Source: Candidatus Paraburkholderia kirkii
Lineage (GTDB): Bacteria > Pseudomonadota > Gammaproteobacteria > Burkholderiales > Burkholderiaceae
Reading direction: 5' to 3'
Length of the DNA: 64,000 nt
NCBI GenBank assembly: GCA_001189345.1
Contig: LFKV01000015.1
Coordinates: 124,001-188,000 of the forward strand
The notes below the pieces were generated by a model. It was not told the origin of the DNA and searched no databases. It saw only the letters and a program-made list of their open reading frames with translations. Position 1 is the stretch's first letter; each line of letters opens with the position of its first letter. Shown one piece after another: positions 1 through 64,000 of the stretch. Position numbers and translations under genes: made by a program.

Positions 1-2970
1 AACTACGGCGAAGACCGCCACGGGTTTCTGCCGTTCAAGGAAGTCGCCCGCCAGTATTTCCGCGACGGCGTCGAGATGCGCTCCGCGCGCATTCAGGATG
101 CACTCCGCGAGGGCCAGGAACTCATCGTCCAGGTCGAGAAGGAAGAGCGCGGCAACAAGGGCGCGGCCCTCACCACGTTCATCTCGCTCGCGGGACGCTA
201 TCTCGTCCTGATGCCGAACAACCCGCGCGGCGGCGGCGTCTCACGCCGCATCGAGAGCGACGAGCGGCAGGAACTGCGCGAAACCATGGCGCAGCTCGAA
301 CTGCCGGAAGGCATGAGCATCATCGCGCGCACGGCCGGCATCGGCCGCTCCGCCGAAGAGCTCCAGTGGGACCTGAACTACCTGATGCAGCTCTGGCGCG
401 CGATCGAAGCCGCGTCGCAGAGCGGCGTCGCCGGCCAGCCGATGCTCATTTATCTCGAATCGAGCCTCGTCATCCGCGCGATCCGCGACTACTTCCAGCC
501 GGACATCGGCGAAATCCTCATCGACACGACCGAAATCCATGATCAGGCGCGCGCCTTCATGGATATCGTGATGCCCGACAACCTCTCGAAGGTGAAGCGC
601 TATCACGACGACGTGCCGCTCTTCTCGCGCTTCCAGATCGAGCACCAGATCGAAACCGCATACTCGCGCACGGTGCCGCTGCCCTCGGGCGGCGGGATCG
701 TGATCGATCACACCGAGGCGCTCGTCGCCATCGACGTGAACTCGGCGCGCGCGACCAAGGGCGCGGACATCGAGGAAACCGCCACGCGCACCAATCTCGA
801 AGCCGCAGACGAAGTCGCGCGCCAGCTTCGTCTGCGCGATCTGGGCGGCCTGATCGTGATCGACTTCATCGACATGGAGTCGGCCAAGAGCCAGCGCGAA
901 GTCGAGCAGCGCCTGAAGGATGCGCTGAAGCACGACCGTGCGCGCGTACAAATGGGCAAGATTTCGCGCTTCGGCCTGATGGAATTGTCGCGCCAGCGTC
1001 TGCGTCCGGCGCTGTCGGAAGGCAGCCACGTGACCTGCCCGCGCTGCAACGGCACGGGCCATATCCGCGATACGGAATCGTCCGCGCTGCAAGTGCTGCG
1101 GATCATCCAGGAAGAAGCGATGAAGGAGAACACCGCGGCGATCCATTGCCAGGTGCCGGTCGAGGTGACCGCCTTCCTGCTGAACGAAAAGCGCTCGGAA
1201 ATCAACAAGATCGAGTCGCGCTTCAAGGTCAACGTCGTCCTGATTCCCAACAAGCATCTCGAGACGCCGCACTACAAGCTCGAGCGCCTGCGTCACGACG
1301 ATGCGCGCCTCGACGATCCGCGCGCCTCGTGGAAGATGGCCGTCGAAGCAGCGAGCGAGCTGGAGTCGGAGACCGGCTACAGCAAGCGCAGCGAGGAAGT
1401 AAAGCCGAAGCAGGAAGCGGCCGTGAAGGGCATCACGCCCGAGAAGCCGGCGCCCGTCGAGGCCGCGCCCGCGCCCGTGCCGGCGAGCGGTGGTCTCATC
1501 GCCTGGATCAAGAATCTGTTCGGCATTCAGCCGGAAGCCAAGCCCGCACCGGCCCCGGTCGAGACGCAACCGGCCGTGCGTCCGCAGCGTGAACGCAGCG
1601 AGCGCACCGGCGGCGGCGATCGCAACCGCAACCGCCGCGGTGCCGCCGCCGGACGCGAAGGCGCGGCAGCAGGTGCGGCGACGGGCGGCAACGGCGCAGG
1701 CCGACAAGGCGCGCGCCGCGAGGATCGCGAAGCGCGTGGCGGCCGTGAAGGACGTGAGCTGCGCGAAGTCCGTGAACCGCGCGAGGCCCGCGAGCCGCGT
1801 GAAGCCCGTGAGCCGCGCGAGCCCCGCGAACCGCGTGAAGCACGCGATCGCAACGCCGAGCGCGCCGCGCGTCCGGAAGCGGGCGAACGCCGCAAGCCGC
1901 AGCCGGAAGCGGCCGTCGAGGCGCTGACGCAGGGCGAAACGGTCGTATCGGAAGTCGTCGAAACGATGCAGGTCGGCACGGACGTCGCGCAGCAGCCGGG
2001 CAGCGATGCGGCAACCGCCGATCAGACCGCTGGCGCACGTGACAGCGAAGAGCGCCGCCGCCGTCGCCGTGGCCGTCGTGGCGGCCGCCGCGAGCGCGAC
2101 GAGGAAGGCATGACGGTGAATCACGCGGCCGACGTCGCGGAAGCGGAAGGCGCGGCGGAAAGCGTGTCGGCGCAAGCCGGCGTGTTCGACGCGGAAGCCG
2201 TGCAGGAAGCGGCGGCGCGCCGCGAAACCCGTCCGACCGCTCCGCAGCCCGTTGCAGAGCCCGTCGAACCGCAGGTCGAAAAGCCGGCCGAGGTCAAGCC
2301 GCAGGAGCAGGCGCCTGCCGCCGCCGAGGAAGCGCCGGTTGCTAGGACGCAGGAAGCCGAGCCGTTCGAACTGAAGGCACCGACGCCCGAACCGGCGACG
2401 CCCGATCTCTTCGCCAAGCCCACTCCGGCGCTCGCGGTCGAAAACCCGTTCGGTCCGTCGCCGAAGGTCGTCGAGACGAAGGTGGCCGATCCGTTCGCGC
2501 CCGTCGCCACGGAAGAAGCGAAGCCGGTGGAAACGGCCCGGCCTGTCGAGGCGGCCGCGGCCGAAGCGGCTCCCCAAGCCGCCGTGGAAGCCGCTGAGGC
2601 CACCGAGCCGGTGAAGACCGCCGCGGTCGCGCCGACGCCCGAGGCAACCAGCGTCGAGCCGATCGAGGCTGCGGAAACGCCGGCGACAATGGCCGCGCCG
2701 GAGCCGGTCGCAGTCGTCGCGGAACCGGTGAAGTCCGCCGCGCCGGCGGCTCCCGCGACCTCGACGTCGATCGCCGTCGAAGCCCTCCAGCCGATGCTGG
2801 AGCGCGCGGGCCTGGTGTGGGTCAATACCGACGAAGGCAAGCTGCGCGAGGCAAACGACGCTGCGGCGCGCGAGCCGGCGCCGGTCCGCGTGCCGCGTGA
2901 GCGCAAGCCGCTCCCGCCGACCGACACCACGCCGATGCAGCAAGTGGAAACCAGCAAGAGCATCCACTGA
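1..2970 (+). CDS. rne: Ribonuclease E, 5' end cut by window edge
   Basis: Endoribonuclease E/G: single-strand RNA cleavage in mRNA decay and rRNA/tRNA processing, scaffold of the degradosome. The frame is open from base 1, where the first codons (NYGEDRHGFLPF) belong to the S1 RNA-binding region, so the real start lies upstream. The DNase I-like catalytic core follows; metal-binding Asp codons are at 733-735 (in IDVNSARATKG) and 862-864 (in LIVIDFIDME). The Zn-link CPRCNGTG has Cys codons at 1036 and 1045. From about 1400 the protein is a long low-complexity tail with an REPREAREPRE-type repeat (about 1760-1850), an Arg-rich patch (RRRRRGRRGGRR, near 2055) and Ala/Pro/Glu-rich sequence, as in beta-proteobacterial RNase E. 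Intact to its stop and followed by a strong terminator. Confidence 0.96.
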   Translation, partial: NYGEDRHGFLPFKEVARQYFRDGVEMRSARIQDALREGQELIVQVEKEERGNKGAALTTFISLAGRYLVLMPNNPRGGGVSRRIESDERQELRETMAQLELPEGMSIIARTAGIGRSAEELQWDLNYLMQLWRAIEAASQSGVAGQPMLIYLESSLVIRAIRDYFQPDIGEILIDTTEIHDQARAFMDIVMPDNLSKVKRYHDDVPLFSRFQIEHQIETAYSRTVPLPSGGGIVIDHTEALVAIDVNSARATKGADIEETATRTNLEAADEVARQLRLRDLGGLIVIDFIDMESAKSQREVEQRLKDALKHDRARVQMGKISRFGLMELSRQRLRPALSEGSHVTCPRCNGTGHIRDTESSALQVLRIIQEEAMKENTAAIHCQVPVEVTAFLLNEKRSEINKIESRFKVNVVLIPNKHLETPHYKLERLRHDDARLDDPRASWKMAVEAASELESETGYSKRSEEVKPKQEAAVKGITPEKPAPVEAAPAPVPASGGLIAWIKNLFGIQPEAKPAPAPVETQPAVRPQRERSERTGGGDRNRNRRGAAAGREGAAAGAATGGNGAGRQGARREDREARGGREGRELREVREPREAREPREAREPREPREPREARDRNAERAARPEAGERRKPQPEAAVEALTQGETVVSEVVETMQVGTDVAQQPGSDAATADQTAGARDSEERRRRRRGRRGGRRERDEEGMTVNHAADVAEAEGAAESVSAQAGVFDAEAVQEAAARRETRPTAPQPVAEPVEPQVEKPAEVKPQEQAPAAAEEAPVARTQEAEPFELKAPTPEPATPDLFAKPTPALAVENPFGPSPKVVETKVADPFAPVATEEAKPVETARPVEAAAAEAAPQAAVEAAEATEPVKTAAVAPTPEATSVEPIEAAETPATMAAPEPVAVVAEPVKSAAPAAPATSTSIAVEALQPMLERAGLVWVNTDEGKLREANDAAAREPAPVRVPRERKPLPPTDTTPMQQVETSKSIH

Positions 2971-3020
2971 GCGCAACGCGCCTGCACGGTTCCCCGACCG
3001 TGCAGGCCGATGCCGGAGAG

Positions 3021-3053
3021 AACGCCATCGACTCGAGTCGATGGCGTTTTTTT
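3021..3053 (+). terminator. Rho-independent terminator of rne
   Basis: A perfect 14-bp inverted repeat with no loop bases (AACGCCATCGACTC then its exact complement), 50 bp after the rne stop, runs straight into a T tract. Classic intrinsic terminator. Confidence 0.93.
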
Positions 3054-3165: not shown

Positions 3166-3867
3166 AAGGCCGCAGCGGCCACGCTGAAAGACGCGGGCCT
3201 CTCGCGCGTCACGGTCAGTCTGGATGCGCTCGACGACGCCCTCTTTCGCCGCATGAACGACGCGGATTTCGCCGTCGGCGACATGCTGGACGGCATCGAG
3301 GCCGCGCAGGCCGCCGGACTCGCGCCGCTCAAGGTGAACATGGTGGTGAAGCGCGGCACGAACGATCAGGAAATCGTGCCGATGGCGAGCCACTTCAAAG
3401 GCACCGGTGCGATCCTGCGCTTCATCGAATACATGGACGTGGGCGTGTCGAACGGCTGGAACATGAGCGAGGTGCTGCCCTCCGCGCAGGTCGTCGGGCG
3501 CATCGACGCGCATTTCCCGCTCGAGCCGCTCGAAGCGCACAGCGCCGCCGAAACCGCGCAGCGCTGGGGCTACCGCGACGGCGGCGGCGAAATCGGCGTG
3601 ATCTCGAGCGTCACGCGCGCGTTCTGCGGCTCGTGCATACGCGCGCGGCTCTCGACGGAAGGCAAGCTCTATCTCTGTCTCTTCGCGGTGTCCGGCCACG
3701 ATCTGCGCGGCCTGATCCGCGGCGGCACGAGCGACGACGAAGTCGCCACCGCCATTGCGCGAATCTGGGAAGCGCGCGGCGACCGTTATTCGCAGCTGCG
3801 CGGCAGCGCGTCGGTGCAAGCGCGTGAAAACGCCCCCCGCGTCGAAATGTCTTACATCGGCGGCTGA
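3166..3867 (+). pseudogene. moaA: moaA remnant lacking the radical-SAM N-terminus
   Basis: GTP 3',8-cyclase MoaA performs the first step of molybdenum-cofactor synthesis. The visible frame starts mid-protein ([20 protein letters not shown]) and continues to a normal C-terminus with the second Fe-S cluster motif ([10 protein letters not shown]) and the terminal GG of SYIGG. About 130 N-terminal residues are missing, including the CxxxCxxC radical-SAM cluster. An in-frame stop (TAG) lies at 3133, and the bases at about 3136-3163 look like normal upstream sequence, so a deletion of about 0.4 kb joins the region before the gene to mid-gene. An internal ATG at 3253 could start translation, but the product could not bind the catalytic cluster. 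An assembly collapse is the alternative. Confidence 0.85.
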
Positions 3868-3883: not shown

Positions 3884-4525
3884 GTGCCGGCCGCTCCCAA
3901 CGCTCATTCATCGTCCGACATATCGTCCGACATCACGGTGCTCGTGCTCGCGGGCGGCCGTGGCTCGCGCATGAGCGGCGTCGACAAGGGCATGCAGCCG
4001 TTTCACGGCGAGCCGCTCGCGCTGTACGTGATGCGGCGCCTCGCGCCCCAGGCCGGCGCGATGCTAACCAGCGCCAACCGGTCCATCCGTGAATATGAGC
4101 GGCTGGGCGCGCAATTCGGCGCACGCGTCATCCCGGACGCGCGCGCGGATTACCCTGGCCCGCTCGCCGGCATCGCCGCCGGGCTGCGCGCCGCGAGCAC
4201 GGAATTCGTCCTGACCGCGCCCTGCGACGCTCCTTTCGTCGACGAACATCTCGGCGCCGCGCTGATGCATGCGCTCGATGCGAAGCACGCCGGCATTGTG
4301 TATGCCTCAACGGTCGATGCGGCCGGAGAAGTCATGGCGCATCCGGTGTTCGCGCTCGTGCGCACCTCGCTCGCCGACGATCTCGACGCCTGGCTCGACG
4401 CCGGCGAACGCAAGGTGCGCGCGTGGTACGCGCGCCACACGGCGGTGGAAGTCCAATTTCACGACGAACGCGCGTTTTACAATATCAACGATTCACAGCA
4501 GCTGGCCGAGCTGGAGCGCCGCTGA
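3884..4525 (+). CDS. mobA: Molybdenum cofactor guanylyltransferase MobA
   Basis: Transfers GMP from GTP to molybdopterin to make the guanine-dinucleotide cofactor. The nucleotidyltransferase signature LAGGRGSRMSGVDKG is near the N-terminus, followed by PGPLAGIAAGL and TAPCDAPFV (metal/nucleotide-binding Asp). Length of about 213 residues fits the family. The start is uncertain: the frame is open upstream into moaA with no ATG near the expected N-terminus, so the GTG at 3884 or the TTG at 3878, just after the moaA stop, are the best choices. Lies between broken moaA and broken moeA. It is intact, but its substrate pathway appears lost. Confidence 0.86.
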   Translation: MPAAPNAHSSSDISSDITVLVLAGGRGSRMSGVDKGMQPFHGEPLALYVMRRLAPQAGAMLTSANRSIREYERLGAQFGARVIPDARADYPGPLAGIAAGLRAASTEFVLTAPCDAPFVDEHLGAALMHALDAKHAGIVYASTVDAAGEVMAHPVFALVRTSLADDLDAWLDAGERKVRAWYARHTAVEVQFHDERAFYNINDSQQLAELERR

Positions 4526-4629: not shown

Positions 4630-5936
4630 ATGACCACGTCCAAGGAATTCTCCGCCTGCGTCGCCCAGTACGATCCCGATGCCCTGCCTGTCGAGGCGGC
4701 GCAGGAAATCGTGCGTCAGTGGGCGATACCGCGCGCCGCCGATGTACAGGTGGAACGCGTGAGCCTGCACGACGCGCTCGACCGCGTGCTCGCCGAAGAC
4801 GTGATCTCCCCCATCGACGTACCCGCCTTCGACAATTCCGCGATGGACGGCTACGCGTTCGCCGACGCTGCACTGGCGCGCGGCGGCGGCACTATCGATC
4901 TCTCCGTCGCGGGCACGGCGCTCGCCGGGCGGCCGTTCACCGCCACGCCGGGGGCGGACGAGTGCGTGCGCATCATGACGGGCGCGCTCATGCCTCCGGG
5001 CTGCGACACGGTCGTGCCGCAGGAACTCGTCACGCGCGCAGGCGACACGATCCGCTTCGCCAACGCGAAACTCCGCGCGGGCCAGAACCGGCGCCTGTCG
5101 GGCGAGGATCTCGCGAAAGGCAAGCCCGTGCTGCACGCCGGCCGCATCGTGCGCGCATCGGATCTCGGCCTGCTCGCATCGCTCGGCATCGGCGAAGTGT
5201 CCGTGCGCAAGCGGCTCGTCGTCGCGTTCTTCTCGACGGGCGACGAACTGCGTTCGGTTGGCGAGACATTGAGCCCGGGCAGCCTTTACGACAGCAACCG
5301 CTACACGCTCTTCGCGATGCTCAGGCGCCTGGGCGTCGAGACGGTCGATCTCGGCATCGTGCGTGACGACCGCCCCTCGCTCGAAAAGGCGCTGCGCCAT
5401 GCGACCGAAAGCGCGGACGTCGTCATCAGCTCGGGCGGCGTATCGGTCGGCGATGCGGACTTCACGCGCGAGCTGATGAATTCGCTCAGCGAAGTCGCCT
5501 TCTGGAAGATCGCGATGCGCCCCGGCCGGCCGCTCGCCTTCGGCCGCCTGTGGTCGGGCGAGCGCGCGGGCACGGGCAAGCCGGCGCTCTTTTTCGGCTT
5601 GCCGGGCAATCCGGTCGCCCCGTGATGGCGACCTTCTACTTCATCGTGCGCGAGGCGTTGCTGGCCATGTCGGGCGCGACGCGCCAGCCGCTCACGGTCA
5701 TCCGCGCGACCAGCGCCGAGCCGATGAAGAAGCGCGCCGGCCGCACCGAGTTCCAGCGCGGCATCGTGACGCGTGACGTCGACGGGCGCTTTCGCGTCGT
5801 CACGACCGGTCCGCAAGGATCCAGCGTGCTCAGCTCGATGAGCGAGGCGAACTGCTTCATCGTGCTCGAGCAGGCGCGCGGCGACATAGACGCCGGCGAC
5901 GAAGTCGAGATCGTGCCGTTCGACGGGCTGATCTGA
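4630..5936 (+). pseudogene. moeA: moeA, frameshifted
   Basis: Molybdopterin molybdenumtransferase inserts molybdate into adenylylated molybdopterin. The ATG at 4630 opens a typical MoeA (VPAFDNSAMDGYAF, SSGGVSVGDADF, FGLPGNPVA). After the conserved GNPVA the frame hits a stop at 5623-5625. The C-terminal domain continues one frame over (VMATFYFIVREAL onward) to a stop at 5936. An extra CC at about 5617-5621 explains the shift exactly. Without it the protein would be about 434 residues, the family norm. The C-terminal part of the cofactor-binding region is therefore lost. Confidence 0.9.
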
Positions 5937-5999: not shown

Positions 6000-6275
6000 A
6001 TGAAAAAGCAGATCTCATCCATCGCACCGGGACAGACCGCCAAGGCGCTGATCCTCGTGTACCTAACCTTCAGCGTGCCCATCGTGCTGCTCGGCGTGGT
6101 GGTCGCCTTCGTGCGGTACGGCTCGGTGGAAGTGAGCACCGTCACGAGCGCGCTCCTGCTCAATGCGATTCTCGGCTTCATCCTGCTGTGGATCGCGTGC
6201 CATGCCTATAACTGGGTGGCCTCGCGCTTCGGCGGCATCGAGATCGTGTTGTCCGATGTACCGGAGGAAGCATGA
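6000..6275 (+). CDS. Small two-helix membrane protein, unknown function
   Basis: A 91-residue protein starting MKKQISS. It has two hydrophobic stretches (about residues 17-40 and 50-70) that should span the membrane, and a short acidic C-terminus (SDVPEEA). The stop overlaps the start of the downstream acetyltransferase gene by 4 bp (ATGA), so the two are probably translated together. I do not recognise a named family. Intact, with codon use like its neighbours. Confidence 0.75.
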   Translation: MKKQISSIAPGQTAKALILVYLTFSVPIVLLGVVVAFVRYGSVEVSTVTSALLLNAILGFILLWIACHAYNWVASRFGGIEIVLSDVPEEA

Positions 6276-6766
6276 GCGCCGTGAACGGGCGCGCCACGAT
6301 CCGCGCCGCCACGCCCGCCGACGTCGCCGCGATCTTCGCGCTGATGATGTATGAGCTGGCCGAGTTCGAGAAGCTCACGCATCTCTTCATCGCCACGGAA
6401 CGAGGCGTGCACGACGCGCTCTTCGGCACGCGTCCCGCCGCTGAAACGCTCGTCGCGGAGCAGGACGGCGAGATCGTCGGCTATGCGCTCTTCTTCCAGA
6501 ACTTCTCGACCTTCCTCGGCAAGCGCGGCCTCTATCTGGAAGATATCTACGTGCGTCCGTCGATGCGCGGCAGCGGCCTCGGCACGCTGATGCTCAAGCG
6601 GCTCGCCGCGCTCGCGGTCGAGCGCCAGTGCGAACGCTTCGAGTGGTCGGTGCTCGACTGGAACCAGAACGCCATCGACTTCTACGAAAAGATGGGCGCC
6701 ACCGTGCTGCCCGACTGGCGCATCGTGCGCGTGACGGGCGAGCTGCTCGAACGCCTCGCCCGCTGA
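6272..6766 (+). CDS. GNAT-family N-acetyltransferase
   Basis: A 164-residue acetyl-CoA-dependent acetyltransferase. The acetyl-CoA-binding motif A is clear: LYLEDIYVRPSMRGSGLGTLML, with the (R/Q)xxGxG/A core as RGSGLG. The later stretch WNQNAIDFYEKMGA is typical of the diamine / thialysine acetyltransferase branch (SSAT-like), so an amine substrate is plausible but unproven. The 4-bp overlap with the upstream membrane-protein gene suggests one operon. Its stop is one base from the rmuC stop on the other strand. Confidence 0.88.
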   Translation: MSAVNGRATIRAATPADVAAIFALMMYELAEFEKLTHLFIATERGVHDALFGTRPAAETLVAEQDGEIVGYALFFQNFSTFLGKRGLYLEDIYVRPSMRGSGLGTLMLKRLAALAVERQCERFEWSVLDWNQNAIDFYEKMGATVLPDWRIVRVTGELLERLAR

Positions 6767-6767: not shown

Positions 6768-7808
6768 TCACATGTCGTCGCTTTCGGGCGACGATGCATC
6801 GCCCAGCAGTCCCGCCGCCTGTTCTCCCGGCAGCGCCTCGACATCGCGCAGGCGCTTGTTCATCTGCCGCGTGCGCGTCTGCGCCGCTTCGATCGAGCGG
6901 GTGACGGTTTCGAGCTGCGACTTCGTTCGCGCCAGCACTTCGCCGAACTTGCCGAACTCGGTCTTCACCGCGCCTAGCACCTGCCACACTTCGCTCGAAC
7001 GCTTTTCGATGGCGAGCGTGCGAAAACCCATCTGCAGGCTGTTGAGCAGCGCGGTGAGCGTGGTCGGTCCCGCAACGCTCACGCGATGCTCGCGCTGCAG
7101 CGCATCGCTCAGGCCCGGGCGCCGCAGCACCTCGGCGTAGAGTCCTTCGGTCGGCAGGAACAGCAGCGCGAAGTCGGTGGTATGAGGCGGCGCGACGTAC
7201 TTCTGCGCAATCGACTTCGCCTCCGCGCGCAAGCGCCCTTCGAGCGCGCGCGACGCTTCCTCGACCGCGACCGGGTCAGCGCGCTCCTGCGCGTCGATCA
7301 GGCGCTCGTAGTCCTCGCGCGGAAACTTCGCGTCGATGGGCAGCCACACGGGCGTGGCCGCGTCGCCGGGCGCGCCCGGCGCATCGTGCCGGCCGGGCAG
7401 CTTGACCGCGAACTCGACGCGCTCGCTGCTCTTCGGAACCGTCGCGACGTTCTTCGCGTACTGGTCGGGCGTGAGCAGCTGCTCCAGCAGCGATTCCAGC
7501 TGCACCTCGCCCCAGGTGCCGCGCGTCTTGACGTTGGTCAGCACCTTCTTCAAATCGCCAACGCCGGCCGCGAGCGTCTGCATTTCGCCGAGCCCGCGAT
7601 GGACCTGCTCGAGCCGCTCCGACACGAGCTTGAACGACTCGCCAAGCCGTTGTTCGAGCGTCGCGTGCAGCTTTTCGTCGACCGTGCGGCGCATTTCCTC
7701 GAGCTTCGTCGCGTTGTTCGCCTCGATGTCCTTCAGACGCGCTTCGAGCGTCGCGCGCACTTCGGCGAGGCGCCGCTCGTTTGCTTCGGACAGTTGCCCG
7801 AGATGCAG
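6768..7808 (-). pseudogene. rmuC: rmuC, 5' end removed by an IS66-family end
   Basis: RmuC is a coiled-coil protein with a nuclease-like domain thought to limit DNA inversions and rearrangements. The conserved domain is present (TRGTWGEVQLESLLEQLL, PIDAKFPREDYERLI, LLFLPTEGLYAEVLR) and ends normally at 6768. Upstream the frame runs back through coiled coil (HLGQLSEANERRLAEVRATLE) to position 7808, where it is cut by the terminal GTAAGCG of an IS66-family element. The N-terminal anchor and part of the coiled coil, roughly 100-150 residues of a typical 450-500, are missing. A GTG at 7760 could give a truncated product. Confidence 0.87.
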
Positions 7809-7949
7809 GTAAGCGCTCGATCAGTACCGTCGAGGGTCGACATTGACCTTTGAAGGCGGCGCTGCTAGCGAATGGAATCGATGTGCGCGGAGGCGGGCAA
7901 CACAGGAGCGACGTTCCAGGGTAACAGGTCGTCGATGCGGTTTATCGGG
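7809..7949 (-). mobile_element. Right end of an IS66-family element (tnpC C-terminus)
   Basis: Starts with GTAAGCGCTCGATC, the IS66-type terminal repeat. Its first 22 bases match the left end of the IS66 element at 39996 with one mismatch. On the minus strand, 7865-7949 encodes the last TnpC residues (PINRIDDLLPWNV...SIR, stop). The rest of the element is replaced by an IS3-family fragment that begins at 7950. It sits directly in rmuC. Confidence 0.82.
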
Positions 7950-8486
7950 TGGACTTGCCCCCGCATAACCGGACAGCCGGTCCCGCTTAGGTTGGAGGAT
8001 TTGCTTGCCGACGAAACTCGCGCGGCGAGCGGTATTTAAGGGCGCTATGCGGGTGTGACTCGTTATCGTGGTCGAACGCGATGGCCAGATTTTGCAGCGC
8101 CGTCCTGGCGTCGGGTTTCGGCATCCACGAAACGTAATCACGCTTTATCGTTTCGTAATCACGCTTTATCGTTTTAACGAAGCTCTCGGCCATCCCGTTG
8201 CTTTGCGGACTTCTGACGGGTGTCGTTACTGGCTTCAGTCCGATTTTTCGAGAGAACTTCAATGTGTCATCGGCAATGTAGCAGGAACCATCGCCGCTTA
8301 ACCACTCGACTTCCCTGTCGGCCTTCAACGCGCCGGTGAAGCGGTTCTCGACGGCTTGAAGCATGACGTCACGCACCATATCGCCAGTGTAACCGCCTGT
8401 GCTCGCGGCCCAACTCATGGCTTCGCGGTCGCAACAGTCGAGCCAGAGACCGTTGCACCGGGCTCGAAAGTCTCGCGAACTATCGC
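7950..8486 (-). mobile_element. IS3-family fragment (orfB C-terminal part)
   Basis: Begins on the plus strand with TGGACTTGCCCCC, the terminal repeat type of IS3-family elements common in Burkholderia. The minus strand at 7987-8451 encodes the end of an OrfB integrase-type transposase ([32 protein letters not shown] with the last catalytic Glu, [14 protein letters not shown]). OrfA and the first two thirds of OrfB are absent. The truncated side abuts IS630 copy 1 at 8487, so the element was inserted in IS66 and then cut by IS630 or a deletion. Not able to transpose by itself. Confidence 0.85.
8133..8174. repeat. 21-bp tandem duplication inside IS3 orfB
   Basis: Two exact copies of the 21-mer CGTAATCACGCTTTATCGTTT (8133-8153 and 8154-8174). 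It keeps frame and doubles seven residues, giving [13 protein letters not shown] in the encoded protein where family members have a single TIKRDY. Confidence 0.93.
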
Positions 8487-9604
8487 TATTGCGCTGCGTT
8501 ATTGAATTAGCACCCTGTCTGTGTTCAGATACAGGTCATGGGTCAAAATGAACCTGACAGATATCGAACGTGAGCAACTGTTGTCGGCGGCGCGCAGCCG
8601 AACGGTGCGTGCGGCGGACGTGCGACGCGCAAAGTTGATCCTGATGCTCGAGGACGGCGAATCGCGCGACAGTATCATGCGCACACTGGGTTGCGATTCG
8701 CGCTTCATCGCACGCTGGTCGGGGCGCTTCCTCAGCGAGCGACTAGCCGGCATGTACGCCCGGCACCGCGGGCGGGCGCCTACGCAGCCACCGGCCAAAC
8801 TGGAAGCGCGGGTGCTCAAGTGCACCCTCAAGCACAAACCCGCCGACGGTTCGACACACTGGAGTAGCTACAAGCTCGCAGCAGAACTCGGCGACGTATC
8901 GGTCTCGGCCGTGCAGCGCATCTGGCGCAAGCACGGCATCAAGCCGCAGCAGTTGGAGCGGCACATGGTCTCCAACGACCCGGACTTCGAGACCAAGGCA
9001 GCCGACGTGATCGGGCTGTACCTGAACCCGCCGGCGCACGCAGCGGTGTTCTGCGTGGACGAGAAGACCGCGATCCAGGCACTCGATCGCAAGGACCGTA
9101 TGCTGCCGCTGTCGCCCGGGCGCGCCGAGAGTCACGGCTTCGAGTACAAGCGCAACGGCACGCTCAGCCTGTTCGCGGCGTTCAATACTGCCACCGGCGA
9201 GGTGCTGGGCAAGACGGTGGCGCGCCACACCAGCGAGCAGTTCGTGGCCTTCCTGACCGACGTCGTCGCCAGCCAGCCCAAACGCCGGGAAATCCACGCG
9301 ATCTGCGACAACGTCAGCAGCCATAAGACGCAGCGGGTTGCCGACTTCCTTGATGCGCAGCGCAACGTGCACCTGCACTTCACGCCGACCTACTCGTCGT
9401 GGCTCAACCAGGTGGAGAACTGGTTCTCGCGCATTCAGCGTGAAGTGATCGCTCGCGGCATCTTCACTTCGGTGAAGGATTGGGATCGCAAACTGATGCC
9501 GATACATCCGCGAACACAACAAGAACCCGAAACCGATCAAGTGGAAATATGACGATCCTTCGCGCCGGATTCGACCAGTGCCAATTCAATGACGCAATGG
9601 AATA
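8487..9604 (+). mobile_element. IS630-family element, copy 1
   Basis: About 1.1 kb with one transposase gene. The right end reads GTGCCAATTCAATGACGCAA followed by TGG, the inverse of the left end of copy 3 with two mismatches over 23 bp. TA dinucleotides at both edges (8487-8488 and 9603-9604) fit the TA target duplication of this family. The first 8 bases after the left TA (TTGCGCTG) differ from the canonical end seen in copy 3. Otherwise essentially identical to copies at 41923 and 55745. Confidence 0.88.
8548..9552 (+). CDS. IS630-family transposase (copy 1)
   Basis: A 334-residue DDE transposase with N-terminal helix-turn-helix (residues about 1-60), catalytic Asp171 (FCVDEKT), Asp254 (ICDNVSSHKT) and Glu290 (WLNQVENWFS), i.e. 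a DD35E layout. The ATG at 8548 (MNLTDIEREQ) is preferred; the frame is open to 8521. The C-terminus looks frameshifted. An extra C at 9499/9500 sends the frame to a stop at 9552. Without it the protein would end with RYIREHNKNPKPIKWKY and stop at 9590-9592, a tail typical of the family. All three copies carry the same extra base. Confidence 0.92.
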   Translation: MNLTDIEREQLLSAARSRTVRAADVRRAKLILMLEDGESRDSIMRTLGCDSRFIARWSGRFLSERLAGMYARHRGRAPTQPPAKLEARVLKCTLKHKPADGSTHWSSYKLAAELGDVSVSAVQRIWRKHGIKPQQLERHMVSNDPDFETKAADVIGLYLNPPAHAAVFCVDEKTAIQALDRKDRMLPLSPGRAESHGFEYKRNGTLSLFAAFNTATGEVLGKTVARHTSEQFVAFLTDVVASQPKRREIHAICDNVSSHKTQRVADFLDAQRNVHLHFTPTYSSWLNQVENWFSRIQREVIARGIFTSVKDWDRKLMPIHPRTQQEPETDQVEI

Positions 9605-9730
9605 GCTTGGCAGACCGTGCGCGAGCCAAGTCCCGTGAGTCCTTTGAGGGCGACACTTAGAGGCTGGGCCAGTCCGAACGATGACGACGAGTCTGCCTGA
9701 AGTACTCCGGGCCAAAAGCTGCTTTCTTTG

Positions 9731-9762
9731 GTCACTTTCTTTGCAGCAGCAAAGAAAGTGAC
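9731..9762. repeat. Intergenic hairpin repeat with perfect 13-bp stem
   Basis: GTCACTTTCTTTG, loop CAGCAG, then the exact complement. It is followed by CTGCCGCCCCGCACAGGGGC. I recall similar CTTTCTTTG hairpins as dispersed intergenic repeats in Burkholderiaceae, but this rests on memory. The surrounding stretch 9605-9840, between IS630 copy 1 and the end of iolD, holds nothing else recognisable. Confidence 0.65.
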
Positions 9763-9840
9763 TGCCGCCCCGCACAGGGGCAGTGCTAATAGACCGACAA
9801 GAAAACAAGTTCCATAGAAGCCCGATCAAAAAAACAACCC

Positions 9841-15681: not shown

Positions 15682-15823
15682 GACGGCTCCTTGAGACTCG
15701 ATTTCGATGCGGTACCGATGTGCGCGCCTCCGCCGCGCCCGCGAATGGACACTACAGGAAGCGATGAACGTTGATAAAGGCGGGCGGCGTCAGGCAAGCC
15801 GCCCGAAGAAGGTCATGCCGCGA

Positions 15824-20708: not shown

Positions 20709-20710
20709 TG

Positions 20711-20724
20711 TATAAAATTTTATA
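20711..20724. promoter_or_regulatory. AT-rich palindrome before the toxin gene
   Basis: A 14-bp perfect palindrome TATAAAATTTTATA, 3 bp upstream of the toxin ATG. It stands out from the GC-rich surroundings and is suited to autoregulation by the XRE antitoxin. The role is inferred from position. Confidence 0.6.
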
Positions 20725-43040: not shown

Positions 43041-43061
43041 GTGAAACATTGCTAACGTTGG

Positions 43062-54642: not shown

Positions 54643-55479
54643 ATGAATGACTTGTTGCGTTCGTTCGTGCGCGCCGTTGCGAACGTCTTTCATCCGCGCA
54701 TGCTCTGGTTGACGCTGATGCCGTTCGGCGTCGCCACCGTGGCATGGGGCGCGCTCCTCTGGTTCTTCTGGCAGACGCTCACCGGCGCCGCGAGCAGCTG
54801 GCTCGACGGCTGGGCGCTTACGTTCGCCATGTACCGTCTCTTCGACGCGGTCGGCTTCTCGTCGCTGCATGCGGTGATCGCGCCGTTTCTGGTCGTCATC
54901 ATGACGATTCCGCTGATCGTCGTGACCGTGCTCCTGCTCATCGCGACGCTCTCGATGCCGGGCGTCGTCAAATTGCTCACGCGCCGGCCGAAGGGGCATT
55001 ATGCGTCGCTGGAAGAGCGGCACGGCGGCTCGTGGTACGGTAGTCTCGGGCATTCGGTCGTGACGACGGTGGTGTGTCTCGTGCTGCTGGTCGTCATGCT
55101 GCCCCTGTGGCTGATTCCGCCGTTCTTCGCGCTCGTGCCGCCGCTGCTGTGGGGCTGACTCACCTACCGCGTAATGACTTACGACGCGCTCGCGCTGCAC
55201 GCGAGCGCCGACGAACGCCGCGCGATCGTGCGCGATTCGCGCTGGCCGTTGCTTGCGATCGGCATCGCGAGCGGCCTCCTGAGCTCCGTGCCGACGATGC
55301 TCTGGGCATGGTCCGTCTGGCTGCTGCCGCTTTTTCCGGTCGTCGCCGTCGTGACGATCTGGGCGTATGCGTTCATCCTCGTGTTTTCCGCGCTCTGGTT
55401 CGCGCATTACTGTCTGCATGCGCTCGAGCGCATGCGCGCGAGCGAGCCGCACTATCCGGCGATCACGGTCGAATCCTGA
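54643..55479 (+). pseudogene. EI24/CysZ-like membrane protein with a nonsense codon
   Basis: An ATG at 54643 starts MNDLLRSFVRAVANVFHPRM with several membrane helices. After VPPLLWG the frame meets TGA at 55156-55158, then continues in the same frame with LTYRVMTYDALALHASADER, another helix pair and a stop at 55479. The whole reads as one protein of about 278 residues. Family members have Trp (TGG) where the TGA is, so a single G-to-A change split it. Readthrough or reinitiation at the in-frame ATG 55174 is possible. Confidence 0.82.
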
Positions 55480-55510: not shown

Positions 55511-55744
55511 ATGGGCATTGGCGTCATCATCATCGGCGACGAGATCCTGTCCGGCCGCCGCACCGACAAGCATCTGCCGAAGATCATCGAACTGCTGGGC
55601 GCGCGCGGCCTGTCGCTCGACTGGGCCGAATACGTCGGCGACGATTCCGCGCGCATCACCGCGACGCTCGCGCGCACCTTCGCGTCGGGCGACATCGTGT
55701 TCTCGACGGGCGGCATCGGCGCCACACCCGACGACCACACGCGC
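55511..55744 (+). pseudogene. CinA-like molybdopterin-binding-domain protein, N-terminal part
   Basis: The N-terminal 78 residues (MGIGVIIIGDEILSGRRTDK to STGGIGATPDDHT) are the MoCF-biosynthesis/CinA fold typical of nicotinamide-nucleotide-amidase-related proteins. IS630 copy 3 starts at 55745. The C-terminal end of the same gene reappears at 56859 on the far side. The core (roughly 150-170 residues) is deleted. Confidence 0.85.
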
Positions 55745-56858
55745 TAGTCCATTGCGTTATTGAATTAGCACCCTGTCTGTGTTCAGATACAGGTCATGGG
55801 TCAAAATGAACCTGACAGATATCGAACGTGAGCAACTGTTGTCGGCGGCGCGCAGCCGAACGGTGCGTGCGGCGGACGTGCGACGCGCAAAGTTGATCCT
55901 GATGCTCGAGGACGGCGAATCGCGCGACAGTATCATGCGCACACTGGGTTGCGATTCGCGCTTCATCGCACGCTGGTCGGGGCGCTTCCTCAGCGAGCGA
56001 CTAGCCGGCATGTACGCCCGGCACCGCGGGCGGGCGCCTACGCAGCCACCGGCCAAACTGGAAGCGCGGGTGCTCAAGTGCACCCTCAAGCACAAACCCG
56101 CCGACGGTTCGACACACTGGAGTAGCTACAAGCTCGCAGCAGAACTCGGCGACGTATCGGTCTCGGCCGTGCAGCGCATCTGGCGCAAGCACGGCATCAA
56201 GCCGCAGCAGTTGGAGCGGCACATGGTCTCCAACGACCCGGACTTCGAGACCAAGGCAGCCGACGTGATCGGGCTGTACCTGAACCCGCCGGCGCACGCA
56301 GCGGTGTTCTGCGTGGACGAGAAGACCGCGATCCAGGCACTCGATCGCAAGGACCGTATGCTGCCGCTGTCGCCCGGGCGCGCCGAGAGTCACGGCTTCG
56401 AGTACAAGCGCAACGGCACGCTCAGCCTGTTCGCGGCGTTCAATACTGCCACCGGCGAGGTGCTGGGCAAGACGGTGGCGCGCCACACCAGCGAGCAGTT
56501 CGTGGCCTTCCTGACCGACGTCGTCGCCAGCCAGCCCAAACGCCGGGAAATCCACGCGATCTGCGACAACGTCAGCAGCCATAAGACGCAGCGGGTTGCC
56601 GACTTCCTTGATGCGCAGCGCAACGTGCACCTGCACTTCACGCCGACCTACTCGTCGTGGCTCAACCAGGTGGAGAACTGGTTCTCGCGCATTCAGCGTG
56701 AAGTGATCGCTCGCGGCATCTTCACTTCGGTGAAGGATTGGGATCGCAAACTGATGCCGATACATCCGCGAACACAACAAGAACCCGAAACCGATCAAGT
56801 GGAAATATGACGATCCTTCGCGCCGGATTCGACCAGTGCCAATTCAATGACGCAATGG
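55745..56858 (+). mobile_element. IS630-family element, copy 3
   Basis: The left end is the canonical TAGTCCATTGCGTTATTG (TA at 55745-55746). At the right end the sequence stops at GCAATGG (56858) and the expected terminal bases plus TA are missing, so a deletion starts exactly at the element edge. The body matches copy 1. Confidence 0.88.
55806..56810 (+). CDS. IS630-family transposase (copy 3)
   Basis: By eye identical in protein sequence to copy 1, with the DD35E triad intact and the same extra C at about 56757 replacing the family-type C-terminus (unshifted stop at 56848-56850). Confidence 0.92.
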   Translation: MNLTDIEREQLLSAARSRTVRAADVRRAKLILMLEDGESRDSIMRTLGCDSRFIARWSGRFLSERLAGMYARHRGRAPTQPPAKLEARVLKCTLKHKPADGSTHWSSYKLAAELGDVSVSAVQRIWRKHGIKPQQLERHMVSNDPDFETKAADVIGLYLNPPAHAAVFCVDEKTAIQALDRKDRMLPLSPGRAESHGFEYKRNGTLSLFAAFNTATGEVLGKTVARHTSEQFVAFLTDVVASQPKRREIHAICDNVSSHKTQRVADFLDAQRNVHLHFTPTYSSWLNQVENWFSRIQREVIARGIFTSVKDWDRKLMPIHPRTQQEPETDQVEI

Positions 56859-56955
56859 TCCCGAGACGGCCAACGCCGCGTTCGACGTGCTGCGTGAAGG
56901 CATGATCGCGCTGGGCGGCGAGGTGGTGGAAGTGCCGCCGGACGAAGCGAAGTGA
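56859..56955 (+). pseudogene. CinA-like gene, C-terminal remnant
   Basis: The frame ETANAAFDVLREGMIALGGE to the stop at 56953-56955 is the end of the gene whose start lies at 55511. Its stop overlaps the GTG of cutC by two bases. Confidence 0.75.
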
Positions 56956-57646
56956 GGTTGCTGGAAGTCATTGCGACGGCCGTCGCCGACGCGCGCGCCG
57001 CGGAGCGGGGCGGCGCCGACCGGCTGGAGCTCGTCACCGCGATGGGCGAGGGCGGGCTGACGCCGAGCATCGGGCTGATCGAATCGGTGGTGGCAGCGGT
57101 CGGCAATTCCGGTGAACGTGATCGTGCGGCTGCACAGCCGCTCGTTCGTCTGCGATGCCGACGACTACGCGGTCATCACGCGCGACGTGCGCGCGATCGC
57201 CGGGACCGGCGCGAACGTGATCGTGGTGGGCATGCTGCGCGCCGATGGAGAAGTGGATACGGACGGCCTCGTGCGCGTGATCGAGGCAGCGGACGGCTTG
57301 CCGCTCACGTTCCACCGCGCGTTCGATGACGCGCGATCTTTTCTCCGCGTTCGAGACCTTGCTGCAATTCGATGCGGTGACGAACGTGCTGACGTCCGGC
57401 GGCAAGCCATCGGTGCTGCAAGCCGAAGCGACGATCGCGAGGCTGGTGGAAAGGGCCGTGGGAACGCGCTGCACGGTGCTGGCGGGCGCGGGGCTCACCG
57501 TGGATGCGCTCGCGTCGTTCGTCGCATCGACGGGTGTTCGCGCGGTGCATTTCGGCTCGGGCGTGCGCGTGGACGGGAAGATGCTCGCGCCCGTCGACGA
57601 GGAAAGGGTCAGGCGCGTGCGCGGATTGCTCGACGCGCCGGACTGA
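56952..57646 (+). pseudogene. cutC: Copper homeostasis protein CutC, two frameshifts
   Basis: TIM-barrel CutC. The GTG at 56952 starts MRLLEVIATAVADARAAERG and GADRLELVTAMGEGGLTPS. An extra A at about 57104 breaks the frame. Frame two carries VNVIVRLHSRSFVCDADDY and GLPLTFHRAFDDAR; two bases missing from a CG run at about 57332 lead to frame three (DLFSAFETLLQFDAVTNVLT, SGGKPSVLQAE) ending at 57646. Native length about 231 residues. Confidence 0.9.
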
Positions 57647-57655
57647 GCGAGCCGC

Positions 57656-58487: not shown

Positions 58488-59903
58488 ATGAGTAAATCCG
58501 TGGCCGACATCATGCAACTCGTCAGGGACGAGGACGTCAAGTTCGTCGACTTCCGTTTCACCGATACGCGCGGCAAAGAACAACACGTTTCCGTGCCGGT
58601 TTCGGCATTCGACGAAGACAAATTTGAAAGCGGCCACGCTTTCGACGGTTCGTCCATCGCCGGCTGGAAGGGCATCGAAGCGTCGGACATGCTGCTCGTC
58701 CCGGACGCGGACACCGCCTTCATCGACCCGTTCTACGAAGAGTCGACGCTCGTGCTGACCTGCGACGTGGTCGAGCCCGCCGACGGCAAGGGCTACGAGC
58801 GCGACCCGCGCTCGCTCTCGAAGCGCGCCGAAGCCTATCTCAAGAGCTCGGGCCTGGGCGACACCGCCTACTTCGGTCCAGAGCCGGAATTCTTCATTTT
58901 CGACTCGGTGCAGTGGAACACGGATCAGTCGGGCACGTTCGTGAAGATCGGCTCGGAAGAAGCGCCGTGGTCGTCGGGCAAGGAATTCGAAGGCGGCAAC
59001 ACCGGCCACCGTCCGGGCACGAAGGGCGGCTACTTCCCGGTCGCGCCGGTCGACACGTTCCAGGACATCCGTTCGGAAATGTGTCTGCTGCTCGAACAGA
59101 TCGGCATTCCGGCCGAAGTGCATCACCACGAAGTGGCGGGCCAGGGCCAGAACGAAATCGGCACCAAGTTCTCGACGCTGGTTCAGCGCGCCGACTGGCT
59201 GCAGCAGATGAAGTACATCATCCATAACGTGGCGCACACGTATGGCAAGACGGCGACCTTCATGCCGAAGCCGGTCGTCGGCGACAACGGTTCGGGCATG
59301 CACGTGCACCAGTCGATCTGGAAGGACGGCCAGAACCTGTTCGCGGGCAACGGCTACGCCGGCCTGTCGGAATTCGCGCTGTTCTACATCGGCGGCATCA
59401 TCAAGCATGCGCGCGCGCTGAACGCGATCACAAACCCGGGCACGAACTCGTACAAGCGCCTCGTGCCGCACTTCGAAGCGCCCGTGAAGCTGGCTTACTC
59501 GGCGCGCAACCGTTCGGCCTCGATCCGTATTCCGCACGTGTCGAATCCGAAGGGCCGCCGCATCGAAACGCGCTTCCCGGATCCGCTCGCGAATCCGTAC
59601 CTGTGCTTCTCCGCGCTGATGATGGCGGGTCTCGACGGCGTGCAGAACAAGATTCATCCGGGCGAAGCCGCGGACAAGAATCTGTATGACTTGCCGCCGG
59701 AAGAAGACGCGAAGATCCTGACCGTGTGCGCGGGCCTCGACCAGGCCCTCGACGCGCTCGACGCGGATCGCGAGTTCCTGACGCGCGGCGGCGTGTTCAC
59801 GGACTCGATGCTCGACGCCTACATCGAATTGAAGACGAACGAGCTGCAGCGTTATCGTCAGGCGGTACATCCGATCGAATTCGAGATGTACTACTCGCTG
59901 TAA
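58488..59903 (+). CDS. glnA: Glutamine synthetase type I
   Basis: ATP-dependent glutamine formation from glutamate and ammonia; dodecameric enzyme of 471 residues. Visible motifs: [17 protein letters not shown], the metal-binding [35 protein letters not shown], and the adenylylation site NLYDLPPEE (Tyr400). The start has a strong AGGAGAT site. It is controlled by the upstream NtrC/sigma-54 signals and followed by ntrB-ntrC. Intact. Confidence 0.98.
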
Positions 59904-60015
59904 GCATGACGCCAGCGCGTTGCCTCGAAAGCAATTCGACGAAGCGCGCAGGGCAGGCGCGGTTTCCCGAATCGAGAAGAAGATCGGTGTCACGAACGAC
60001 CTCATTCATTGCACG

Positions 60016-61158
60016 ATGGTGCTCAAGAATCTGATCAAGGCGCGCAAGGGCCACGCCGACGCCCTCTCCGACGACGCCCAGCTCGCGGCAAGCGGTCTTC
60101 TGCCGGGATTCGAGGCGCTGCCCACGAACGTGCTGGTTCTGGACATGCGCAGTCTCAAGATCGCGTACGCGAATCCTTCGGCCGAAGCGATGCTGGAGAT
60201 GTCGCGCAAGCAGCTGACGCAGATGAACTGGGCAGAGCTCTTCGCCAACGCGGAAGAGCTCGCGGCCACGATCGCATCGATCGCGGAGAACCGCTTCAAC
60301 GCGACGCGGCTCGCGGCCGTGCTAGAGCGCCTCGGCCGCGAGCCGGTGCACGTACATGCGATCGTCGGCTATCTGGAGGCCGCTACCGACTACGTGCTGC
60401 TCGAACTCTTCGAGAACGAGCGCCACCTGCGCACCGACAGGGAAGAGCGTATCCACGATCTCACGGCGGTCAACAAGCAGCTGATCCGCAATCTCGCGCA
60501 CGAGATCAAGAATCCGCTCGGCGGCATCCGCGGCGCGGCGCAGCTGCTCGAATTCGAGCTCGGCGCGCTCGAACGCGACGAGCTGCGCGAGTACACGCAG
60601 GTCATCATCAAGGAGTCGGATCGGCTGCAGACGCTGGTCGACAGATTGCTGGAGCCGCACCGGCATCTGCATATCGTCGGCGACGTGAACATCCACGAAG
60701 TGTGCGAGCGCGTGCGCGCCGTGATCCTCGCGGAATTTCCGCGCGGCCTCACGATCGAGCGCGACTACGACGTGAGCGTGCCGGACCTGCGCGGCGACAA
60801 GGAGCAGCTGATCCAGGCGCTGCTGAACATCGTGCGCAACGCGGCCGAGGCGCTCAAGGAGCGCATTTCACAAGGCTATGCGAAGATCGAGCTGCGCACG
60901 CGCATCGCGCGCAAGGTGACGATCGGCAAGAAGCTGCACAAACTGGCATTGGACTTGCGTACCACTGACAACGGTCCCGGAATCCCGAGCGAGATCCGCG
61001 ACCGGATCTTCTTTCCGCTCGTGTCGGGCCGGGAAGACGGCAGCGGTCTCGGCCTCACGCTCGCGCAATCGTTCGTGCATCAGCACGATGGCTTGATCGA
61101 AGTGGAGAGCAGGCCGGGCTGCACCGAGTTCGCCATTCTGTTGCCATTTGAGAACTGA
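60016..61158 (+). CDS. ntrB: Nitrogen regulation sensor kinase NtrB
   Basis: Two-component kinase of 380 residues that phosphorylates NtrC in response to PII. It has an N-terminal PAS domain (LPTNVLVLDMRSLKIAYANP), the phosphorylated His162 in RNLAHEIKNPLGG, an N box (LLNIVRNAAEAL), G1 box (TDNGPGIP) and G2 box (GREDGSGLGLTLA). No membrane helix, as usual for NtrB. The ATG at 60016 (MVLKNLIKARKG) is the typical start; an upstream one at 59920 is possible. Intact. Confidence 0.95.
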   Translation: MVLKNLIKARKGHADALSDDAQLAASGLLPGFEALPTNVLVLDMRSLKIAYANPSAEAMLEMSRKQLTQMNWAELFANAEELAATIASIAENRFNATRLAAVLERLGREPVHVHAIVGYLEAATDYVLLELFENERHLRTDREERIHDLTAVNKQLIRNLAHEIKNPLGGIRGAAQLLEFELGALERDELREYTQVIIKESDRLQTLVDRLLEPHRHLHIVGDVNIHEVCERVRAVILAEFPRGLTIERDYDVSVPDLRGDKEQLIQALLNIVRNAAEALKERISQGYAKIELRTRIARKVTIGKKLHKLALDLRTTDNGPGIPSEIRDRIFFPLVSGREDGSGLGLTLAQSFVHQHDGLIEVESRPGCTEFAILLPFEN

Positions 61159-61294
61159 ACCGTTTGATCACCGACATCACGCCACGAACGTCACAGGCCG
61201 CCGTCAACATGGGCCGCGTCCGCATCAAGCTTTGAAGCCTGACCGTTTCGACGGGGCTCACACCGAACCATACGAAGACTTCTCGCCGAACGAT

Positions 61295-62791
61295 ATGAAG
61301 CCGATCTGGATAGTAGACGACGACCAATCCATCCGCTGGGTGCTGGAAAAGGCGCTCGCACGAGAGAATTTCACGACGCGCAGCTTCTCGGGCGTGCGCG
61401 ATGCGCTCGCCGCGCTCGACGGAGAAAGCCCGCGGGTGCTCGTCTCGGACATCCGCATGCCGGGCGGCTCCGGGCTCGAACTGTTGCAGACCGTGCGCGA
61501 CCGCCTGCCGGGACTGCCGGTCATCATAATGACGGCGTTTTCCGATCTCGACAGCGCGGTGGCCGCGTTCCAGGGCGGTGCGTTCGAATATCTCGCCAAG
61601 CCTTTCGACGTGGACAAGGCCGTCGAGCTGATCCGCCGCGCGGTGGACGAAAGCATGCGCGGCGAAGCCGCGTATGACGAGCGCGTGACGGAAACGCCCG
61701 AGATGCTCGGGCAGGCGCCGGCGATGCAGGACATGTTCCGCGCCATCGGCCGTTTGTCCCATTCGGCGGCGACCGTGCTCATCACGGGCGAATCAGGTAC
61801 CGGAAAGGAGCTTATTGCGCGCGCTTTGCACCGACATAGCCCGCGCGCGAACGGACCGTTCATCGCGCTGAATACGGCGGCGATTCCGAAGGATCTACTG
61901 GAATCCGAATTGTTCGGCCACGAGCGCGGCGCGTTCACCGGCGCGCAGGCAATGCGCCAGGGCCGCTTCGAGCAGGCCGAGAACGGCACGCTCTTTCTCG
62001 ATGAAATCGGCGACATGCCGTTCGACCTGCAGACGCGCCTGTTGCGCGTGCTGTCCGACGTGCAGTTCTATCGCGTGGGCGGCCACAATCCGCTGAAGGC
62101 CAACGTGCGGGTGATCGCGGCGACGCATCAGAATCTCGAGTCGCGCGTGCGGCAGGGCCTGTTCCGCGAGGACCTGTATCACCGCCTGAACGTGATCCGT
62201 CTGCGTCTGCCGGCGTTGCGCGAGCGCAGCGAGGACATTCCGCTGCTTACGCGCCATTTCCTGCAGAAGAGCGCGCGCGATCTCGGCGTGGAGCCTAAGC
62301 GCGTGTCGGACGATGCGCTCGCCTATCTCGCGTCGCTGCCGTTTCCCGGCAACGTGCGTCAGCTGGAGAACCTGTGCAACTGGCTCACGGTGATGGCGCC
62401 CGCGCAGGTGATCGAGCGGAAGGATCTGCCGCCCGATCTTACGCCGCGCCAGGACGCGACGCCGGAGGCCATCGCGGTGTCGACCGACGGCGCGGTGGCC
62501 GCGGCGCCGCTCGCGCAGAACGGCACGGGCGCGGCGGCTGCGCCGGCCGCCACCACGGTATTGGGCGTTTCCGCGAGCGTATGGGAGAACGGCTTGCGCA
62601 CGGAAGTCGCGCGTCTGCTGGGGGAGAATTCCGCCGACGTCATGGACGAGCTCGCGCGCCGCTTCGAAGCCGCAGTGATCCGCGAGGCGCTCGATTTCAC
62701 GCGCGGGCGCAAGGTGGAAGCGGCGGAGCGTCTGGGCATCGGCCGCAATACGATCACGCGCAAGATCCAGGAACTGCACCTGGACGCGTGA
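61295..62791 (+). CDS. ntrC: Nitrogen regulation response regulator NtrC
   Basis: A 498-residue sigma-54 activator. The receiver domain has the phosphorylated Asp52 (VSDIRMPGG) and the Lys of AKPFDVDKA. The AAA+ domain has Walker A GESGTGKE, the sigma-54-contact GAFTGA loop and Walker B TLFLDEIGDM. The C-terminal Fis-type helix-turn-helix is AAERLGIGRNTITRKI. An Ala-rich linker (about residues 390-430) precedes it. Start ATG 61295 (MKPIWIVDDDQS). Intact. Confidence 0.96.
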   Translation: MKPIWIVDDDQSIRWVLEKALARENFTTRSFSGVRDALAALDGESPRVLVSDIRMPGGSGLELLQTVRDRLPGLPVIIMTAFSDLDSAVAAFQGGAFEYLAKPFDVDKAVELIRRAVDESMRGEAAYDERVTETPEMLGQAPAMQDMFRAIGRLSHSAATVLITGESGTGKELIARALHRHSPRANGPFIALNTAAIPKDLLESELFGHERGAFTGAQAMRQGRFEQAENGTLFLDEIGDMPFDLQTRLLRVLSDVQFYRVGGHNPLKANVRVIAATHQNLESRVRQGLFREDLYHRLNVIRLRLPALRERSEDIPLLTRHFLQKSARDLGVEPKRVSDDALAYLASLPFPGNVRQLENLCNWLTVMAPAQVIERKDLPPDLTPRQDATPEAIAVSTDGAVAAAPLAQNGTGAAAAPAATTVLGVSASVWENGLRTEVARLLGENSADVMDELARRFEAAVIREALDFTRGRKVEAAERLGIGRNTITRKIQELHLDA

Positions 62792-62809
62792 CTTCCGTTC
62801 GAACCGCGT

Positions 62810-63592: not shown

Positions 63593-63725
63593 TGCGTGGA
63601 CGAAGTGTTAGTTTGGTTATCGTCCGCTTTCGACGATGATCCAGCATGATACCCATAAGCGCGACGGCGTCCGCGCAACGTATTTTTGCAATGCCAATCA
63701 AGTCATCGACAAGGAGGTGACGAAC

Positions 63726-64000
63726 ATGACGTCGCCATTCTCTCTCGCGGTCGCCACGCCCACGCGATCCGGCTCCTTCTGCATGGATTACGTCGGCAGC
63801 GTTCTGGAGCTGCAGCATCACTGTCTCGGCAAGGGCATCGACTTTCGCTTCCTGCCGCTTGCCAACGTCACCTTGATCGACCTCGCCCGCAACACGCTGG
63901 CAAACCGCTTCCTGTGGGAGACGCCGTGCACGCACCTGCTGTTCGTCGACGACGACATGGGCTTCCACGCGGGCGAGCTCGCGCGGATGTTCGATTACCG
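63726..64000 (+). CDS. Glycosyltransferase-like protein, 3' end cut by window edge
   Basis: The ATG at 63726 follows a very strong ribosome-binding site (AAGGAGGTGA). The 91 visible residues start MTSPFSLAVATPTRSGSFCM. They contain LANVTLIDLARNTLANRF and LFVDDDMGFHAGELARMFD. The DDD after a hydrophobic strand is the usual nucleotide-sugar/metal motif of GT-A fold glycosyltransferases. The gene continues past the window. Family assignment is by motif only. Confidence 0.7.
   Translation, partial: MTSPFSLAVATPTRSGSFCMDYVGSVLELQHHCLGKGIDFRFLPLANVTLIDLARNTLANRFLWETPCTHLLFVDDDMGFHAGELARMFDY

Follow-up and report, generated by a model that had tools for sequence, protein, structure and literature searches.

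A 64-kb stretch of bacterial DNA (G000:C15:124001–188000, hereafter the window) from Candidatus Burkholderia (Caballeronia) kirkii UZHbot2 carries broken genes at many loci, alongside intact essential genes and several copies of an insertion sequence (IS) of the IS630 type. We are highly confident that this is the genome of an obligate Psychotria leaf-nodule symbiont in which restriction to the host has led to reductive evolution and to an IS630 burst, with the essential genes and two cyclase genes spared. The window belongs to UZHbot2: its assembly, 97% complete, consists of 48 contigs totaling 3,914,712 bases, the same two figures that a table in PMC4896955 gives for UZHbot2. At 3.9 Mb the genome is small for its genus, among whose 57 other genomes 49 measure 5.1–10.3 Mb and eight 2.4–4.2 Mb. 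The nearest named relatives of its UvrD-type helicase gene are Caballeronia, including some under former Burkholderia names.

Lesions were called by aligning the open genes of two large-genome relatives, G001 and G009, to the window, and gene names were assigned by profile searches with the relatives' copies. Corresponding stretches of G001, G009, G011, G007 and G012, whose free-living status is taken from their large genomes, served as references. DNA identity between the aligned reference genes and the window was mostly 84–93% (range 80–96%). A scripted rule scored a gene as broken when it carried a net frameshift or stop at 8%–93% of its length or was truncated. Applied to the stretches of contigs C15 and C10 that were sampled, this rule finds 37 of 99 genes broken (20/42 in the window and 17/57 elsewhere). 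This share far exceeds that in the large-genome relatives, where 3/288 gene tests were positive (G009, 1/111; G011, 1/90; G007, 1/72; G012, 0/15), these tests reusing the same G001 genes and not representing independent genes. When the relatives were restricted to genes also judged in the kirkii genome, 0/124 tests were positive. In sum, 37% of comparable sampled genes are broken, whereas 1% of the gene tests in the large-genome relatives are positive, and no essential gene in the sample is hit. The counted genes derive from 470 G001 genes called by our own codon score, of which 370 were set aside because the sampled contigs contained no counterpart reaching 65% identity, much of the genome lying outside the sample; one C43 row of the resulting 100 was excluded. 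The 42 window genes include one straddling the right edge and exclude rne, which straddles the left edge. The control runs omitted genes lying less than 80 nt from the end of a stretch.

Erosion of the window is confirmed. At least 22 disrupted loci had been listed by the initial annotation and 19 of them are broken, 17 relative to both G001 and G009 and two, an mtnN-like gene of the phosphorylase superfamily (27706–28442, + strand) and cutC (56950–57650, +), relative to G001 only; both of the latter carry frameshifts. Among the 17, a 5′ or 3′ part is missing from moaA (3182–3867, +; 5′ part (36–41%) lost), rmuC (6774–7808, −; 3′ part kept), a chemoreceptor gene (33003–33549, +; about one third remains), a GGDEF/EAL gene (35811–37074, −; also a frameshift and a stop), a YbbP-type permease gene (38459–39420, +; 37% remains) and alaX (39391–39993, +; also frameshifts). 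Frameshifts disrupt moeA (4630–5936, +), prpE (29413–31317, +; several), an HDOD-domain gene (34196–35647, −), proP (43928–45509, −) and hrpA (47787–52260, +; several), and an in-frame stop interrupts an EI24/CysZ-family gene (54643–55476, +). The other five, a cinA-like gene, iolD, iolG and the ATPase and permease genes of a sugar ATP-binding cassette (ABC) transporter, are described with the IS630 copies and the inositol locus below. Small frameshifts or stops lie inside the gene in 15 of the 19 loci, and the lesions as a whole comprise frameshifts of one or more bases, deletions from 4 to 19 nt long (4, 5, 14 and 19 nt among them), in-frame stops, gene portions missing at the 5′ or 3′ side and one transposon insertion.

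Three listed loci did not stand in full. The third ABC transporter gene, for a substrate-binding protein (15824–16884, −), is shifted only within about its last 17 codons, and its loss of function is therefore doubtful. The toxin gene gives a half-length profile match only (Gp49 positions 1–48 of 90), which fits damage, but has no close intact reference. None of the tested genes proved to be a second broken dehydrogenase gene, iolG being the broken one. Conversely, two unnamed genes absent from that list are broken, one of 114 aa (19586–19926, −; frameshift and stop) and one of 147 aa (33709–34145, +; frameshifted). Open frames are retained by rne, valS, uvrD, galU, argA, glnA, ntrB, ntrC and xthA. 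The first automatic flag of era as broken was due to an over-long reference start, and the alignment test showed the gene to be intact. The right-edge gene, once taken for cutC, yielded no family, and cutC was located at about 56.95–57.65 kb instead.

The distribution of the lesions was then compared with gene essentiality. E. coli K-12 genes (annotated regions) were compared with 848 kb, or 22%, of the kirkii genome; the non-essential queries of the same comparison, several of whose matches cover only part of the query, were left untallied. Among 96 essential queries, 43 were matched, and four of these were left out as paralogues (ftsI, ftsW, infB and ffh; all open). The remaining 39 all lie in single open frames, including lptA and secE, for which the alignment covers <80% of the query and the frames are about full length. 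Together with rne, valS and the genes that we take, from their order and length beside fabF, to be acpP, fabG and fabD, 44/44 essential genes (39 kb of coding sequence) are unbroken. At the 0.65 small lesions per kb seen in other genes, about 26 would be expected in these 44 genes and none was observed (Fisher P = 2 × 10−8), 36 of them being judged by open frame against E. coli and eight by the G001 test applied to the other genes. In this sample, lesion density is unequal between essential and dispensable genes. The claim that every expected essential gene in the window is intact holds, although it concerns just rne (1–2970, +; starting upstream of the window) and valS (22304–25216, −), presumably the only window genes essential by E. 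coli standards. The sparing argument is moderate inside the window alone and strong with the wider sample.

That most lesions are sequencing or assembly errors of a draft genome is very improbable. Such errors would find room in a draft of 48 contigs, and 7 of 28 indels, hand-picked from the window alignments, lie at homopolymers of 4 or more. However, 21/28 touch no base run >3, and base-calling error does not explain the 4-, 5-, 14- and 19-nt deletions, the in-frame stops, the truncations or the IS insertion. Errors would also not have avoided all 44 essential genes, and separately assembled small genomes of the genus carry the same class of damage at the same locus. The excess of indels at runs may equally stem from slippage in living cells, which yields the same pattern. 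The indel context, the control in relatives and the sparing of essential genes rule out base-calling error as the main cause, in line with the argument first made from the window.

Besides small lesions, the genome has undergone an insertion-sequence expansion. Three IS630 copies, 99.6–99.9% alike, lie in the window (copy 1, 8486–9605, +, with an open 343-aa transposase; copy 2, 41922–43041, +; copy 3, 55753–56858, +). At least 40 copies are present in the genome, and 18 copies of ≥1 kb in the 848 kb are 99.5–100% alike. By comparison, 0–2 matches were found in each of the 57 other genomes, counts in which short-read assemblies may conceal copies, with the exception of G049 (at least seven matches at 87–88% identity), in which a related element may be present in many copies. 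The genus-wide search returned matches of 73–89% identity in 14 other genomes. The window is pieced together from three blocks whose order differs from that in G001. The joins, at about 7.8–9.6 kb and 40–43 kb, are filled by IS630 copies 1 and 2 together with other transposase pieces, namely an rve_3 fragment (7949–8441, −) and pieces of the HTH_Tnp_1 and IS66 families (40038–41946, +). Beyond the rmuC remnant, the counterpart of the G001 sequence is picked up again on contig C10 at about 72.6 kb (from about 72623), adjoining another IS630 copy. Copy 3 is inserted in the cinA-like gene (5′ piece, 55511–55743, +), whose middle is lost and whose two surviving ends flank the element. The IS630 copies may have caused the rearrangements. 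The rve_3 fragment is itself a 493-nt repeat, with 12 copies of ≥400 nt (94–100% identity) in the 848 kb, and in the window it is stacked with other short repeats beside the rmuC remnant.

One copy inside a gene, two at joins and the continuation of rmuC on another contig beside an IS630 copy would suit an explanation in which the damage was entirely the work of IS630, through transposition and recombination. The small internal frameshifts or stops in 15/19 broken loci refute IS630 as the sole cause, an explanation to which we give hardly any credence, and the element remains a contributor. The initial picture of erosion by small lesions was right as to their reality and tells half the story, the IS630 copies and rearrangements being also part of the damage.

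The restricted host niche proposed for this DNA is the published lifestyle of the same genome. According to the introduction of PMC8599487, Ca. B. kirkii cannot grow outside the plant; the same article speaks of the 'massive erosion' of leaf-symbiont genomes and places cyclitol-type genes on the Ca. B. kirkii plasmid pKIR01. In the assembly studied here, two extra dehydroquinate-synthase-like (AroB-like) genes, both below the aroB cut-off, are present on contig C43. The one that was searched had as its best match PDB chain 4p53, named 'Cyclase' (E = 7 × 10−98), which we take to be valiolone synthase. Aminotransferase genes, a trehalose-phosphate-synthase-like gene and a gene for an IolG-like dehydrogenase lie near the two cyclase genes in this cluster (L179 and L180). 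The G+C content of this 40-kb region is 56%, versus 64% on C15. The genome agrees with the published Ca. B. kirkii in base and contig count, in its erosion and in the cyclitol-type genes kept, and in these respects no difference between the two was found. Host restriction is right and already known for kirkii, its genome decay is already published, and the window result is a confirmation. Erosion of the Ca. Burkholderia kirkii genome was reportedly described by Carlier and Eberl in 2012 and by Pinto-Carbo et al. in 2016. For the field, then, the analysis confirms what was in print, while indicating that a decaying symbiont genome is recognizable from raw sequence alone.

A sequence of events that would produce this state can be proposed. 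Life in a single inherited host would make many genes dispensable and keep bacterial populations small. Small indels, stops and deletions would then accumulate by drift in the dispensable genes, to which the IS630 insertion burst, with rearrangements at IS copies, would add further damage. Purifying selection would spare the essential genes and the two observed cyclase genes; the steps may have followed one another in this order. Early-stage host-restricted bacteria carry many pseudogenes, an IS burst and rearrangements, with essential genes spared. Kirkii shares all of these features, whereas its host is a plant leaf and its G+C content has not fallen.

Some observations weigh against reading the window as part of a host-restricted, decaying genome, or limit the tests behind that reading. 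With the window only (rne and valS), 3.9 lesions are expected and none is seen (P = 0.019), and with the same G001 test throughout, 0/8 essential genes are broken versus 37/91 others (P = 0.024). The 53 of 96 essential E. coli queries that have no match in the sampled 22% lie outside the test, and the list of essential genes behind it is a presumed one. The lesions were read from the assembled sequence, and the 7/28 indels that touch runs of ≥4 compare with a background of 3%, so a few could be errors. The G+C content (0.65 and 0.67) has not dropped below that of the reference (0.64 and 0.66), and drift toward A+T, a late-stage trait, was not found in the kirkii sample.

Decay of a single accessory replicon or mobile region, whatever the lifestyle, would also leave a stretch of broken genes. 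Many of the broken genes are catabolic or regulatory, and the broken share is somewhat higher in the window than among the remaining sampled genes, as such a region would have it. Yet most loci keep synteny with the 3.0-Mb contig of G001 and have open frames in the relatives, and the other sampled stretches are decayed too, which leaves this explanation a negligible probability.

The host-restriction reading was further compared with other leaf-nodule genomes, the window and ten other genomes being taken as symbionts on reduced size or cyclase content; for G015, of 6.2 Mb, this status rests solely on an assembly-figure match to Ca. B. verschuerenii. Seven of the other Caballeronia leaf symbionts are putatively pumila, verschuerenii, calva, humilis, brachyanthoides, schumannianae and crenata, and for pumila the valS sequence agrees as well. 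The inositol dehydrogenase gene iolG was found in six genomes (the window, G015, G029, G057, G058 and G033) and is broken in all six, mostly by different lesions, those of the other symbionts mostly differing from those of kirkii. As in kirkii, the compared pieces of galU, valS and uvrD, some of which are partial, are free of net frameshifts; valS of G057 has two offsetting indels at its end. The kirkii IS630 element was not found in the other symbionts at E ≤ 1 × 10−100, bar one 85% piece in G038.

In the window, the inositol locus comprises iolD (9851–11789, −; two frameshifts), an iolC-type kinase/aldolase gene (11718–13718, −; intact), the sugar ABC transporter ATPase gene (13731–14500, −; frameshift from the 19-nt deletion) and permease gene (14516–15769, −; frameshifted), the gene for an RpiR-family regulator (17103–17978, +; intact) and iolG (17962–18963, +; two frameshifts). 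The iolC-type and regulator genes are thus open amid an otherwise broken locus, and the regulator is still open in four of the six genomes with iolG. One lesion in the window iolG, a 2-nt loss in a (GC)n tract, is common to G015 and G029. The shared loss was rejected as proof of common inheritance: on the valS tree the window falls outside the group of G015 and G029, in another that is well supported, and the tract is a (GC)n repeat. Parallel slippage is, therefore, likelier than common inheritance, and the tract is a possible frameshift hotspot. On the valS tree the 'reduced' label requires at least three changes.

It is conceivable, though we think it improbable, that loss of myo-inositol catabolism is a repeated and perhaps favored event, with the iolG hotspot hit independently, because breakdown of an inositol-like cyclitol would undercut the symbiosis. 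Plain decay of a dispensable locus also accounts for the breakage of iolG. A link of this loss to the extra cyclases was dropped, as G033, G057 and G058 have one cyclase-family match, with no second, yet a broken iolG. That inositol catabolism is broken repeatedly across leaf symbionts offers a modest lead on functions unused in the leaf.

Codon positions give an indication of age. Among changes on the kirkii lineage itself, 62% fall at position 3 in broken genes and 70% in intact genes, the labels being set by hand; between G001 and G009 the shares for the same genes are 69% and 76%. These shares suggest that selection acted on the broken genes along most of the branch, and their direction would fit relaxed purifying selection. 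Of the 'recent' move to a restricted niche first proposed, the restriction is established by publication, and 'recent' draws indirect support from these shares.

Several further features of the window were recorded. Intact genes include galU (21346–22227, −), the UvrD-type helicase gene (25343–27709, +) and the glnA, ntrB and ntrC set (58488–62791, +). The rne frame is shortened in frame past its catalytic half, encoding 1047 aa where two relatives have 1100 and 1119, with one deletion of about 100 nt included. An intact MobA-like gene (3935–4525) separates the broken genes moaA and moeA, and a GNAT gene (6188–6766) with a stop at codon 8 and a later start was excluded from the broken count. 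The toxin–antitoxin-like pair at 20033–20939 combines an HTH_37 match with the half-length Gp49 match, and just 125 nt of it match one of the relatives' compared stretches. Outside the window, the best match to E. coli nadB (G000:C48:69754–70890) covers about half of the query and is possibly broken. Positions 9752–9849 match the Burkholderia small RNA family Bp1_684 just over threshold.

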